Shown: one piece after another, positions 1,627-11,634 of the stretch
Numbering within the stretch: the stretch's first letter is position 1
Layout: the number at the start of each line of letters is the position of its first letter
NCBI GenBank assembly: GCA_017631725.1
Contig: JAGBSS010000070.1
Location: forward strand, 1 to 11,938
Length of the DNA: 11,938 nucleotides
Direction: 5' to 3'
From: Clostridia bacterium
GTDB taxonomy: Bacteria > Bacillota > Clostridia > Christensenellales > Borkfalkiaceae
Notes under the pieces: generated by a model
The model's database searches: none
The model's input: the letters and a program-made list of their open reading frames with translations, nothing else
What the model was told of the DNA's origin: nothing
Position numbers and translations under genes: made by a program

Positions 1627-2614
1627 AAAAACTAAAACTACCAAAAGAAGAAACTATATAATCTACAAAAGTTATTGCTTCAAATTGGAAAAAAGGTTGA
1701 TCTTCGTAATAATCAAAAATAATTAAAACGGTGTTTTCCGACGTTGTGGTGTTAGAGTTTGTCAAACGGAAAAAGTCTTGAGTATTATATTTTCCACCCG
1801 TAAGTTTAACTAAATTAAGCCCGTATCTAAGAGTAGTGGTGTTATTATATGCTTCTTCATACTCTGCTTTTTCGCTTTCACTTGCCGAATTTAAAGATTG
1901 CTCGAACCTTCTGTATTTATAAAAAACTTTATCATTTTCTGGCAAGGTGTTATCGTATTCTAAAAGTAAACTTAACCTTTTAGTTGCGTTTGCAAGGTCT
2001 TCTAACCTTTGCATTTCTTTTTTAAAGCCTTCTCTTTTTTGTTCTTTAGTTCTAAATCTATTGTCGTTTTTAACACGATTTAAAAACTCCGTTTCCATTT
2101 TTTCTATGCTAAAATTAGAAAAATTTAACGGGTCTTGACCTTGTTCTACGTATTTAGAAAGATATGCTTTTGCATCAGAAACAAGTTTATCATAATCGTA
2201 AGTTAAAAAGCCGTCTATAATGCTGTCAACTTGGCTTGTAGTGTATTCTTGCCCTTCTTTACTATTTCTTTTACTAGAAGAAAACATTGCATCGCCGTCT
2301 ATACCCTTAACCAAGGTTATAAACTGTTCGTAATTTTCTAACAAATAAGTTGGCTCTACTTTTTGAATTCCGTAACTGAAAATTTGATCGCCATCGTTAT
2401 CCGTTAAAAGTTGATTATTAAACGTTGCAAAATTATCGTAAGAAACGTTTATATCGTAATAGTAATAAAAAGATTCTTCTCTAGAAAGTTTAACGCTTCC
2501 AAAAGCAAATAAAAGTTCCCATGCCAAAATCGCCGCAACTGCGACGATTATAAGGGTTATCCAACTATAAGCCATAAAACTTGATAGCCTTGCTTTTGTT
2601 ATTTTGTTATCCAT
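1619..2614 (-). CDS. Unrecognised membrane-anchored protein in the greA-lysS operon
   Basis: I do not recognise this 331-residue protein. A short basic N-terminus (DNKITKARLSS) is followed by one hydrophobic helix at about residues 14-38 with no obvious signal-peptidase site. It is therefore most likely an N-in single-span anchor with an outside domain of about 290 residues. That domain begins with a tyrosine run (SFYYYYD), is acidic and polar, contains a highly charged, probably helical or coiled-coil stretch at about 165-240, and ends with an aromatic-rich tail. No catalytic motif is apparent. The start codon lies three bases after the lysS stop with no good ribosome binding site, and the stop overlaps the decarboxylase start by 8 bases. 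It is therefore transcribed, and probably translationally coupled, with housekeeping genes. Base composition looks like that of its neighbours, with no sign of recent transfer. Confidence 0.75.
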   Translation of the reverse strand: MDNKITKARLSSFMAYSWITLIIVAVAAILAWELLFAFGSVKLSREESFYYYYDINVSYDNFATFNNQLLTDNDGDQIFSYGIQKVEPTYLLENYEQFITLVKGIDGDAMFSSSKRNSKEGQEYTTSQVDSIIDGFLTYDYDKLVSDAKAYLSKYVEQGQDPLNFSNFSIEKMETEFLNRVKNDNRFRTKEQKREGFKKEMQRLEDLANATKRLSLLLEYDNTLPENDKVFYKYRRFEQSLNSASESEKAEYEEAYNNTTTLRYGLNLVKLTGGKYNTQDFFRLTNSNTTTSENTVLIIFDYYEDQPFFQFEAITFVDYIVSSFGSFSFYA

Positions 2615-8929: not shown

Positions 8930-9142
8930 ATGAAATTTGCTAATTTTATAGCTTTTAGCCTTGTTTTAATAGGCGCACTCGTTTGGGGAATTATTGGTAT
9001 TTTTAACTTTAATCTCGTTGCCGCAATTTTCGGCGGTTCGAGTGCTGTAATTTCCAGAATTATATATTCACTTGTCGGCGTTGCCGCTATTTGGATGTTT
9101 TTTTACTGGATTATCTATAGGCCTTTTACAAAGGCTGTATAA
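8930..9142 (+). CDS. DUF378 family small membrane protein
   Basis: A 70-residue protein with two membrane helices at about 5-26 and 40-63. It matches the DUF378 (YuzA-like) pattern: a first helix VLIGALVWGIIGIFNFNLVAAIFG, then a turn with SSAVISRIIYSLVG and a second helix rich in aromatics. Its function is unknown; it is a common small inner-membrane protein of Bacillota. The ATG is preceded by AAAGGGGGGAAATT, a strong ribosome binding site that is nevertheless the right arm of a hairpin. It is probably read from the promoter of the 86-residue gene upstream and ends at a strong terminator. Confidence 0.88.
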   Translation: MKFANFIAFSLVLIGALVWGIIGIFNFNLVAAIFGGSSAVISRIIYSLVGVAAIWMFFYWIIYRPFTKAV

Positions 9143-9145
9143 AAT

Positions 9146-9174
9146 AAAAAGTCCGCTTTTGCGGACTTTTTTTT
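9146..9174. terminator. Bidirectional terminator between DUF378 and queT
   Basis: GTCCGC (9151-9156), loop TTTT, GCGGAC (9161-9166), extended by A/T pairing. There are eight T on the right and five A on the left. The queT stop codon (9173-9175) overlaps the T-run, so one hairpin serves both convergent genes. Confidence 0.92.
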
Positions 9175-9682
9175 ATCTGAAAAATTCTACACCTTTTTTT
9201 CTTAACCTTTTTATAGATAAGGTTAGCCCCGTTCCTAAAAGATAAATGGAAACAACCTGCCCTGCTAAAACAAGTAAAACGGAAATAATATACCCATAAG
9301 AAATATGTCCGTAGCAAAATTTCCACACTAACGGAAGCAAAAATGCGTTAAGCAAACAAGGGAAAAGTCCACCGACAAAAATTTTTAAAGACGTCTTTTT
9401 TATTTTCCTACAAACTATGTGTGTTAAAAGTGCCGCAAAAAAAGTTATTAAACTGCCAAAAACCACGTCTAATATAGCAGTTCCCGTTATCAAGTTTACT
9501 GCCATACAACCAACAAAAAGCCCAATAGAACTTTCTATAAAAAACAATGGTAAAAGTGTTAAACACTCCCCTATTCTAATTTGTATTGCCCCCGATGCCA
9601 CAGGAAAGGCAAGAAGAGATAAGCAAGCGTAAAGGGCGGCTATAATTGCCGTTCTACATATTCTTTTAGTATTTTTTTTCAT
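9173..9682 (-). CDS. queT: QueT family queuosine-precursor transporter (ECF S component)
   Basis: The substrate-binding membrane subunit of an energy-coupling-factor transporter for a queuosine precursor such as preQ1. It would dock to a shared EcfA/A'/T module that is not in this window. The 169 residues have about five or six membrane helices. The family pattern is visible: AALYACLSLLAFPVASGAIQ, the conserved QIRIGECLTLLP (34-45), GLFVGCMAVNLI (54-65), and DVVFGSLITFFAALLTH (72-88). The start is ATG 9680-9682, with AAAGGGGG eight bases upstream embedded in a terminator-like hairpin. It is a single gene convergent with DUF378. Its leader resembles a preQ1 riboswitch, which agrees with the proposed substrate. 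Confidence 0.9.
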   Translation of the reverse strand: MKKNTKRICRTAIIAALYACLSLLAFPVASGAIQIRIGECLTLLPLFFIESSIGLFVGCMAVNLITGTAILDVVFGSLITFFAALLTHIVCRKIKKTSLKIFVGGLFPCLLNAFLLPLVWKFCYGHISYGYIISVLLVLAGQVVSIYLLGTGLTLSIKRLRKKGVEFFR

Positions 9683-9710
9683 AAAAAAACCCCCTTTCGC
9701 CGAAAGAGAG
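9683..9710 (-). terminator. Terminator/ribosome-binding-site-hiding hairpin before queT
   Basis: On the minus strand, CTCTCTTTC (9710-9702) pairs with GAAAGGGGG (9698-9690) over 9 bp, including two G-U pairs, across a GGC loop. Seven T (9689-9683) then run directly into the ATG. The right arm is also the queT ribosome binding site, so the hairpin could stop transcription and block translation. An alternative stem uses CCGAAGGG (9722-9715) with the left arm, TTTCGG included. Confidence 0.7.
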
Positions 9711-9717
9711 AATTCCC

Positions 9718-9753
9718 TTCGGTTGTTTTAGAAGTGTTGTCCGAAAACCTTCG
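9718..9753 (-). promoter_or_regulatory. Candidate preQ1-I-like riboswitch aptamer in the queT leader
   Basis: The minus-strand leader can form an H-type pseudoknot. P1 is GAAG (9752-9749) with CTTC (9734-9731). P2 is TTCGG (9745-9741), in the loop, with CCGAA (9722-9718), after an A-rich linker TAAAACAA (9730-9723). Size, topology and A-rich tail are those of preQ1 class I riboswitches, which regulate queuosine genes including transporters. P2 formation would use up CCGAA and leave the terminator hairpin at 9683-9710 free to form, giving an OFF switch. P1 is only 4 bp, and I cannot place the ligand-contacting cytosine confidently, so class membership is an inference from structure plus context. 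Confidence 0.6.
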
Positions 9754-9764
9754 ATTTTTTTTCT

Positions 9765-9906: not shown

Positions 9907-11634
9907 ATGGGAGAAATGTTAGGGGTAAAGAAATTCTTTACCAAAAAACGCCTTGCCGTTTTAATTGCAGGCGTGTGTATTATTGGGCTTTTAATAGCCG
10001 CAATGGCATCTGGGCTTTTAGCCAAACTTATAACTTGTCCTACTTGCGATGGAACGGGTTTATGGTTAAATGGTGAATGTATAACTTGCGAAGGTGCTCT
10101 CGTTCACAAAGGTTCTTTTTGGGCTTTACTTCCACCAATTATAGCAATAGGTTTAGCGCTTATCACTAAAGAAGTGTTTAGTTCTCTTTTTATTGGTATA
10201 ATTTCAGGTAGTATTCTTGCTGCTTACACAAGGTCTGCTTCTGTTGGCGGCGTTTTAAAAGGAACTATCGATATTGCCATTAACGAAGGTTTAATTAATG
10301 CTGTTTCCGGCACGGCTGGTATCTTTGTATTTTTAATTGAACTTGGTATTATAGTTTGTATTATCAATAAAGCAGGTGGCAGTAGGGCGTTCGGCGAATG
10401 GGCAAAAACTCACATTAAAACCAAAGTTGGCGCTGCTCTTTGCACTTTCTTTTTAGGAATTTTAATTTTTATTGACGACTATTTTAACTGCTTAACGGTT
10501 GGCTCTGTAATGCGCCCTGTTACCGACAAACACAAAATTAGCCGTGCTAAACTTGCTTATTTAATAGACGCAACGGCTGCTCCTATTTGTATGATAGCCC
10601 CAATTTCTTCTTGGGCGGCGGCAGTTAACCAATACGTTGCCGGTGGCGATGGTTTTACCTTCTTCTGTATGGCAATACCATTTAACTTCTATTCAATTTT
10701 AACACTTGTGTTTATTATTTCCTTAACACTCTTAAAATTCGACTTTGGCCCTATGAAACGCCACGAATTAAACGCATTAAACGGCGACCTTTTCAGCGGA
10801 AACCAAGTTAAAGATAACTCTGGCGAACCTGCATCTAAAGGTAGAGTGTTTGACCTTATTGCCCCAATTGTTATATTGATTGTCACTTGTATTGCATCTT
10901 TATTTATTACCGGTTACGATGCAGAACACAACACAATTATTTCTGCAATTGGTAACACCGATGCAACTGTTGCTCTTCCTTGGGGCGGTCTTATCTCCCT
11001 TGTAATTTTAATAATTTATATGGGTATAAGAAAACTTGTTTCCTTTAAAGAATCTATGGAAGCAATTCCAAAAGGCTTTATGGCAATGGTTCCTGCAATT
11101 TTAATTCTAACCTTTGCAACTGCCCTTAAAAACGTAACGGGCGAACTTGGCGCTGCTTATTACGTTGGCGACCTTATGAAGGGTGCTGCAGGTAGCCTTT
11201 ATGGTTTCTTACCAGCAATTATTTTCTTGGTTGCTTGTGTTCTTTCATTTGCAACGGGTACAAGCTGGGGAACGTTTGGTATACTTATTCCTATAGTTAC
11301 CGCTATGTTTGAACCGGGTAGTCCTATTATGATTATTTCAATGTCCGCTTGTCTTGCCGGTGCAGTTTGTGGCGACCACTGTTCACCAATTTCCGACACG
11401 ACCATTATGAGTAGTGCAGGTGCAGAGTGCGAACACTTAAACCACGTTTCCACTCAATTACCTTATTCACTATTTGTTGCAGGCATTTCCTTTGTTTGTT
11501 TCTTAATTGCAGGCTTTATTCAAAAAGCATATATAATGCTTCCATTAAGTATTGCAATTATGATTGGTGCAATTATTGCTACAAAGTTTATCGTTAAAAA
11601 GATAGAAAGCAAAAAAGCTAAATTACAAGAATAA
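9907..11634 (+). CDS. NhaC-family Na+/H+ antiporter with N-terminal CxxC extension
   Basis: A secondary transporter of the NhaC/COG1757 family in the cytoplasmic membrane, with 575 residues and about 12-13 helices. The family core starts at about residue 71 (FWALLPPIIAIGLALITKEV). It contains IFIDDYFNCLTVGSVMRPVTDKH (about 196-218), TAAPICMIAPISSWA, GTSWGTFGILIPI near the end, and GDHCSPISDTTIMSSAGA, all typical of NhaC proteins. Before the core lies an extension: a basic start, a hydrophobic helix (about 16-38), then CPTCDGTG (44-51) and CITCEG (58-63), a DnaJ-like pair of CxxC motifs. Start ATG 9907 has AAGGAG at five bases. The substrate could be Na+/H+ or, as in some relatives, a carboxylate/Na+ exchange; sequence does not decide. 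The gene is monocistronic, with its own promoter and terminator. Confidence 0.92.
   Translation: MGEMLGVKKFFTKKRLAVLIAGVCIIGLLIAAMASGLLAKLITCPTCDGTGLWLNGECITCEGALVHKGSFWALLPPIIAIGLALITKEVFSSLFIGIISGSILAAYTRSASVGGVLKGTIDIAINEGLINAVSGTAGIFVFLIELGIIVCIINKAGGSRAFGEWAKTHIKTKVGAALCTFFLGILIFIDDYFNCLTVGSVMRPVTDKHKISRAKLAYLIDATAAPICMIAPISSWAAAVNQYVAGGDGFTFFCMAIPFNFYSILTLVFIISLTLLKFDFGPMKRHELNALNGDLFSGNQVKDNSGEPASKGRVFDLIAPIVILIVTCIASLFITGYDAEHNTIISAIGNTDATVALPWGGLISLVILIIYMGIRKLVSFKESMEAIPKGFMAMVPAILILTFATALKNVTGELGAAYYVGDLMKGAAGSLYGFLPAIIFLVACVLSFATGTSWGTFGILIPIVTAMFEPGSPIMIISMSACLAGAVCGDHCSPISDTTIMSSAGAECEHLNHVSTQLPYSLFVAGISFVCFLIAGFIQKAYIMLPLSIAIMIGAIIATKFIVKKIESKKAKLQE

Follow-up and report, generated by a model that had tools for sequence, protein, structure and literature searches.

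The window, a stretch of 11,938 nucleotides from a Clostridia bacterium of the family Borkfalkiaceae, encodes on its minus strand queT (9173–9682), a queuosine-precursor transporter gene of 169 amino acids whose product matches PF06177 at 104 bits (cut-off 33.7) and found no match in an NCBIfam search. Upstream, on the same strand as all leader features given below, the −35 hexamer TTGCAA (9793–9788) and the −10 hexamer TATAAT (9770–9765) stand 17 nt apart and together agree with the consensus at 10 of 12 positions; as an earlier note on this DNA had supposed, RNA is expected to start near 9758, giving a leader of about 76 nt (9758–9683). Read from its 5′ end, this leader runs GAAG, G, UUU, UCGG, ACAAC, A, CUUC, UAAAACAA, CCGAA, GGGAATT, a hairpin, seven U and AUG. 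GAAG (9752–9749) can pair with CTTC (9734–9731) as stem P1, which has 4 bp in the window because the next outer pair is C.T, and TTCGG (9745–9741; UCGG if the fifth pair is left uncounted) can pair with CCGAA (9722–9718) as P2, the two stems and the A-rich L3 (9730–9723) composing an H-type pseudoknot. Downstream, the terminator-like hairpin CTCTCTTTC-GGC-GAAAGGGGG (9710–9690) contains a second copy of the P2 5′ strand, TTCGG (9704–9700), a possible antiterminator partner for CCGAA in the unbound state, and closes with a Shine-Dalgarno-like 3′ arm, AAAGGGGG (9697–9690); seven U (9689–9683) then adjoin the queT ATG at 9682. The pseudoknot segments, the alternative partner of CCGAA and the hairpin with its seven T all lie where the earlier note had read them. 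The nested energy fold of this single leader is unremarkable (z −0.91, with 34 of 200 shuffles equally good), and the case therefore rests on comparison.

A protein-family search located queT in 36 of the 44 genus genomes and, across the family, in 185 of 251, and we read the sequence upstream of it at 58 loci (the window's own, 29 from the genus and 28 from the family), chosen by QueT protein family with no use of the RNA in selection. All but one of these leaders, L055, contain the core GGUU[U/C]UCGG-N2/3-AACAC followed by the P1 3′ strand, an A-rich linker and ACCGA (57/58), and a pseudoknot descriptor demanding a 4-bp P1, a G.A on top and P2 matches 56 of the 58, against a mean of 0.3 and a maximum of 2 in 20 rounds of dinucleotide shuffles. 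Of 57 leaders, 47 have a −10-like box (5/6) no more than 40 nt upstream of P1, the median gap being 9 nt, in a count made without shuffle control.

The earlier note had proposed that the stems be checked for covariation among homologous queT leaders, and P1 does covary. In a first alignment of 39 of the 57 variant leaders, 96.9% of P1 cells are paired and three of the five P1 pairs show changes on both sides, two of these resting on one row each. A second alignment of 96 rows (A2), partly chosen by a pattern with the core letters fixed, which leaves it informative for P1 only, gives GC46/AU25/UA6 for the outer P1 pair, AU72/UA15/CG2/GC1 for the next and AU85/UA6 for the following one, the outer cells being unpaired in 12 of the 96 rows, including the C.T of the window. 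The 55 double-change cells in P1 and its covariation score exceed all 500 shuffles of these rows; two of the five measures are equalled by shuffles, namely the number of P1 pairs with double changes (171/500) and the further pair types (67/500). For P2 the expectation held in part: in both alignments it is paired in all rows and invariant inside the variant clade, and it covaries across the related queT leaders of the order.

Those related queT leaders come from the order's other families and number 60, or 61 with leader L087. A descriptor with canonical P1 and P2 matches 13 of the 60, against a shuffle mean of 1.45 and maximum of 3. Under a looser filter, 27 of the 61 qualify and 34 give no element; it asks for an A-rich linker, a Watson-Crick top pair in P1, a U following P1 and a C preceding its 3′ strand. 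Within the 27, L115 looks like a chance match, L152 is out of register and L139 has a misplaced tail. At least three pairs of their own P2 are formed in 13 of these 27 and one pair in 10, the low scores coming mostly from leaders with the type I UC motif. The P2 halves differ from leader to leader (UCGG/CCGA, CUAG/CUAG, CCG/CGG and, with two G-U pairs, UUGUUG/CAGCAG), and pairing within a leader beats that between swapped leaders, with none of 5,000 permutations as good, or 2 of 5,000 when each family contributes one leader. By eye and by descriptors, five other-family leaders (L094, L103, L105, L106 and L120) have no preQ1-I-like element before queT.

What sets the variant apart is the pair on top of P1. 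A G-C pair stands there in 26 of the 27 qualifying order leaders as listed, whereas in the window guanine 9748 faces adenine 9735, both invariant in all 57 leaders fetched through queT. The adenine is found in 95 of the 96 A2 rows as well, many of them chosen by a pattern containing this A, the exception being the C of L087. This leader and L242 have 22-nt hairpins, GCAGGUUUUCGGCAAACCCUGC and GCAGGUUUUCGGCAAACACUGC respectively, that differ by one base, which is the floor base. The variant aligns gaplessly to the preQ1-I-shaped leaders of the order, and we therefore take it to keep the equivalents of the specificity cytosine (C9736; C17 in Can numbering), of U6 (U9747, placed by alignment with L087) and of A30 (the last base of L3, placed by alignment), with the floor pair G5-C18 replaced by G.A. 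Position numbers of the Bsu, Tte and Can riboswitches follow the part of PMC11625349 cited here, which gives U6 a ligand-contacting role in the loop and calls the G5-C16 floor pair of Tte conserved; in the cited part of the structure paper PMC10622847, an amine of the ligand contacts O6 of G5, the position of G9748. We had also considered that the changed base beside P1 was the specificity base itself, which would have implied queuine sensing. We dropped this because the canonical alignment puts the specificity C one base further 5′, and also after queA, tgt and queH were found.

Set against the hallmarks of preQ1-I, the variant thus has the H-type P1/P2 pseudoknot with an A-rich L3, and the cytosine that precedes the P1 3′ strand (UC or AC) appears as AAC in 57 of 57 leaders if P1 is taken to include the G.A as its uppermost position, as the L087/L242 comparison supports. 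Control of a queuosine gene is suggested by PF06177 downstream in the window and by queT following 98 of the 118 core-pattern matches listed (below). The G-C floor pair is absent, being G.A in 57 of 57. The earlier note's proposal of a preQ1-I variant with a short P1 therefore stands, in that the fold is kept, covariation is seen in P1 and, across the order, in P2, and queT lies downstream; as a refinement, the short P1 has five positions, the uppermost being an invariant G.A in place of G-C.

The covariance models of Rfam tell a different part of the story. The earlier note had suggested running the preQ1-I, preQ1-II and preQ1-III models on the minus strand, and all three proved negative: RF00522, RF01054 and RF02680 found no match in the window even at E ≤ 10. 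RF00522, whose gathering threshold is 39 bits, likewise found none at 30 further G.A loci or at L087, 31 loci where permissive E-values brought up no preQ1 family of Rfam in the leader, and under stricter filters no genome of the order (0/347) exceeded its threshold. Weaker matches occur in 91 of the 347 genomes and, at E 0.1, in 7 of the 60 other-family leaders (25–32 bits). Among 14 control genomes B. subtilis alone was positive; the type III preQ1-I element of E. coli is published, and the test is narrow because E. coli was missed as well. This points to an annotation gap: the 347 sampled genomes of the order have no RF00522 matches over threshold under these filters, yet the leaders of several of its families show recognisable preQ1-I shapes.

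Each described subtype shares some features with the variant. With preQ1-I type II (RF00522; Bsu, Tte) it has in common an H-type pseudoknot of about 35 nt, a U after the P1 5′ strand, AC before a five-position P1 3′ strand, the A-rich L3, association with queuosine genes and control by termination or at the Shine-Dalgarno sequence; it differs in its G.A floor, in being RF00522-negative and in a P2 fixed across the clade as UCGG/CCGA. Type III (E. coli yhhQ) likewise has UU after P1 and AC at the specificity base, and its P2 overlaps the Shine-Dalgarno sequence, as in 18 of 27 variant leaders from other genera; but type III elements have a pyrimidine-rich loop and an AAGG Shine-Dalgarno in P2 and occur almost only in Pseudomonadota before yhhQ, whereas the variant has the loop UUUUCGGNNAAC, a P2 3′ strand of CCGA and the G.A floor, and precedes queT in Bacillota/Clostridia. 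The fold and the UU motif are shared with type I (Can; Listeria queT), which has UC before the P1 3′ strand where the variant has AC, then A; these families also have elements bearing the UC motif, upstream of PF02592 genes. Regulation of queT is also known for preQ1-II (RF01054) and preQ1-III (RF02680), which are larger, HL-out pseudoknots, and the window has no Rfam match to either; preQ1-III has been reported from gut Ruminococcaceae in the cited part of PMC11625349.

Taken together, we consider it highly probable on this comparative footing that the queT leader is an OFF riboswitch built like preQ1-I, with preQ1 as its most likely ligand, in which the floor G-C pair has given way to an invariant G.A; which ligand binds, in which direction control runs and what the G.A does are what we infer from it. 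Because its floor pair lies outside the three described subtypes, we regard it as a variant of the preQ1-I type and as a candidate fourth subtype, which is undescribed in the literature searched (open-licence PMC papers). It would add to one of the best-studied small riboswitches a form lacking the G-C floor of the preQ1 pocket, which has been regarded as conserved, and would put a name to the likely control of queuosine-precursor uptake in these gut Clostridia. L242 and L087, a natural pair of 22 nt one base apart, make the role of the floor pair directly testable.

How the floor might work bears on the first alternative, that the pocket is not of preQ1-I type at all: P1 would extend through G9748-C9736, U9747-A9737 and U9746-A9738 with A9735 bulged, and a ligand would bind elsewhere or not exist. 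Partition functions computed with ViennaRNA are what one would expect of such an extended stem, as the floor guanine pairs with the specificity cytosine (G5-C17, A bulged) with a median probability of 0.94 and a minimum of 0.69 in the 57 variant leaders, compared with 0.03–0.62 in 14 canonical leaders of our choosing, each of them an AC-motif leader; with its leader cut slightly differently the window gives 0.64, and in predicted folds of four variant pieces the pairing continues through the U-A steps. The program, however, favours G5-C17 by construction, because it can score neither G.A nor a pseudoknot. The U-A steps are moreover invariant in 57 leaders, where ordinary base pairs could have varied freely, and the one-base homology with a canonical leader (L242/L087) points to a preQ1-I pocket; we therefore hold the extended stem to be very unlikely as the functional structure. 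A tentative and in our judgement still unlikely model stays within the preQ1-I reading, with the G.A acting as a gate: the ligand-free hairpin would slip, bringing the floor G into a pair with the specificity C and the next U-U into pairs with A-A; A9735 would bulge and the pocket be closed, and preQ1 would have to replace the guanine before pocket and P2 could form. If true, this would make the variant a fourth preQ1-I subtype with an exchange of ligand for guanine inside the aptamer. Pairing between loop positions 7 and 15, which we had considered in support of a gate, was discarded; standard pairs occur there in 8 of the 14 canonical leaders.

A second alternative keeps the fold and changes the ligand, the G.A floor retuning the pocket for queuine, preQ0 or a nucleoside. 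An invariant change directly beneath the ligand site invites this thought, and in guanine riboswitch variants changes in pocket bases altered the ligand, according to the part of PMC11625349 cited here. We surveyed the queuosine pathway in 42 genomes, 28 from variant families (the leader itself being seen in 24) and 14 others, for queA, tgt, queH, QueC and QueF. Overall queA is present in 42, tgt in 41 and queH in 38 of 42 genomes, and in the variant families in 28, 27 and 27 of 28, as expected if preQ1 enters tRNA. QueF exceeds its cut-off in 4 of 42 genomes, with matches covering 56–59 of 81 positions; the count is 0 of 12 for the genus and 2 of 28 for the variant families, both partial matches. 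PF06508 (QueC) passes its low cut-off in 34 of 42, never above 36 bits and mostly in frames of at least 330 amino acids, probably relatives with another function; given these weak matches, a loss of preQ1 synthesis is presumptive, and absences in the window's own genome weigh little because its assembly is about 80% complete. Since queA, tgt and queH are kept, preQ1 is the likely ligand, and the pathway is likely one of salvage in which QueT imports preQ1, Tgt inserts it and QueA and QueH finish the modification. Retention of the specificity C, U6 and A30 equivalents also argues against a changed ligand, as does the queT tree (below), whose mixing of G.A and non-G.A families would fit one ligand for both; we accordingly give a different ligand very little credence, even less than the extended stem.

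The weak RF00522 matches point to a second transporter in the order. We examined 23 of the 91 genomes that have them, and 16 loci (L305–L308, L311, L321 and L324–L333; about 22–31 bits, below the Rfam threshold) precede one transporter-like family, its frames matching PF02592 in the three of three tested; PF02592 we take to be a vitamin-uptake transporter family that includes YhhQ. Thirteen of the 16 elements have GACAG, a loop ending in UC and CUGUC, and the other three (L330, L332 and L333) have GAUG-UUCCUUGC and AC instead of GACAG and UC. Genome G379 has such a transporter-like gene with a preQ1-I-like element together with a queT carrying the G.A variant, and three genomes of family f1 that are outside the listed queT-bearing ones (G118, G068 and G125) have the transporter-like gene.

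Returning to the preferred preQ1-I reading, the expression platform is best seen within the genus, where a terminator-like hairpin with a U tract stands against the AUG in 30 of 30 leaders, under a loose test that shuffled heads with the T tract kept also pass (mean 19.4 of 30, maximum 24). A TCGG copy follows the aptamer in 19 of the 30 (shuffles: mean 8.3, maximum 15), the exact copy being missing in 11. The P2 3′ region pairs with the downstream arm of its own locus at −9.75 kcal/mol and with those of other loci at −8.57, and 6 of 5,000 permutations do as well; once the conserved first bases are left out, the values become −5.70 and −5.11, and 168 of 5,000 do as well. In the window, the hairpin is predicted at −8.8 and the antiterminator stretch at −5.5 kcal/mol. 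An SD-like word lies in the 3′ arm of the hairpin in 28 of the 30 leaders, by a loose rule applied without shuffle control, and a single hairpin could therefore serve both to terminate transcription and to block ribosome access, combining the two modes of control that the earlier note had allowed; the window's own hairpin may have this double role. Of 27 leaders from other genera, 18 have a CCGAGG that is usable as a Shine-Dalgarno sequence at most 14 nt from the AUG, overlapping P2; the remaining nine have longer platforms or another sequence.

The control would be OFF when ligand is bound, given this layout and the known logic of preQ1-I. With preQ1 bound, the P1/P2 pseudoknot would be stable and CCGAA held in P2, leaving the hairpin at 9710–9690 free to form; this hairpin would stop transcription at the run of U and sequester the Shine-Dalgarno-like strand before queT. 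When preQ1 is absent, CCGAA would pair with UUCGG on the 5′ side of the hairpin, which would be disrupted, and polymerase would read through with the ribosome site open. The 18 leaders from other genera would use a simpler platform, P2 itself occupying the start of the Shine-Dalgarno sequence. That the terminator-like hairpin and Shine-Dalgarno sequence alone matter, the pseudoknot being a conserved protein-binding or passive leader that senses nothing, would suit the unexceptional single-sequence fold, but is scarcely credible for a near-invariant core whose P1 covaries across genera and which aligns with preQ1-I-like elements at queT in other families.

We traced the distribution of the preQ1-I variant with R1, a covariance model built from the 39 aligned rows, searching order and phylum with stricter filters. 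R1 matched 33 of 347 genomes of the order. Strong matches (at least 53.9 bits) fall in 28 of them, 16 of family f1, 11 of f6 and one of f16; G306, of family f29, has a match of 35.3 bits at queT, and four genomes have matches of 25–30 bits that by eye lie away from queT. A search for queT found it in 140 of 248 genomes of the order: all 19 queT-bearing genomes of f1, f6 and f16 have a strong R1 match, and among the 121 others G306 alone has one at queT. Across 398 genomes of the phylum, R1 matched the window's own genome and three more at 28–29 bits, which we take to be chance; weak matches at L088–L092 and L301–L303 were set aside as chance too, as by eye they are not before queT or form no proper pseudoknot. 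The core pattern returned at least 118 matches in named genomes, the carriers among the matches listed including Candidatus Gallimonas, Scatosoma, Coproplasma and Borkfalkia. A queT frame overlaps or begins within 250 nt downstream of 98 of the 118 listed, and every one of these 98 forms three or more of the four P1 pairs; another 16 lie elsewhere, 14 of them forming at most two P1 pairs and two forming three, and four are too close to the end of a stretch for queT to be judged.

In a queT tree of 58 proteins and 150 columns, families with and without the G.A interleave. A single origin of the G.A form was rejected, as the tree needs at least five changes and its starred branches force three. 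The f29 and f9 rows sit inside a mostly G.A group, and the tree, too weakly resolved to choose among them, would fit losses, regains or gene transfer of the G.A alike.

Several smaller features accompany these loci. In the window, a terminator-like hairpin with T runs on both strands (9146–9171) lies between queT and a DUF378 gene (8930–9142). Lysine riboswitches over threshold occur near queT in six relatives (L002 2183–2356, L015 2171–2334, L007 1078–1248, L021 2870–3039, L003 2264–2438 and L035 3043–3218); those of L002 and L015 stand before a divergent gene, by eye a homologue of the window's antiporter-family gene (9907–11634), for which the Rfam search found no lysine riboswitch, and proteins of this antiporter family may move lysine. 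The linkers between P1 and the P2 3′ strand are long, and hairpin-like by eye, in L036, L037, L047, L183, L201 and L254. In L052 (about 1970–2060, minus strand), the P2 3′ strand is present twice: the first CCGAGCG can pair with a downstream CGCTCGG, with AAAAAACCGAGG then at the ribosome site, and the doubling is possibly a decoy or a duplicated platform.
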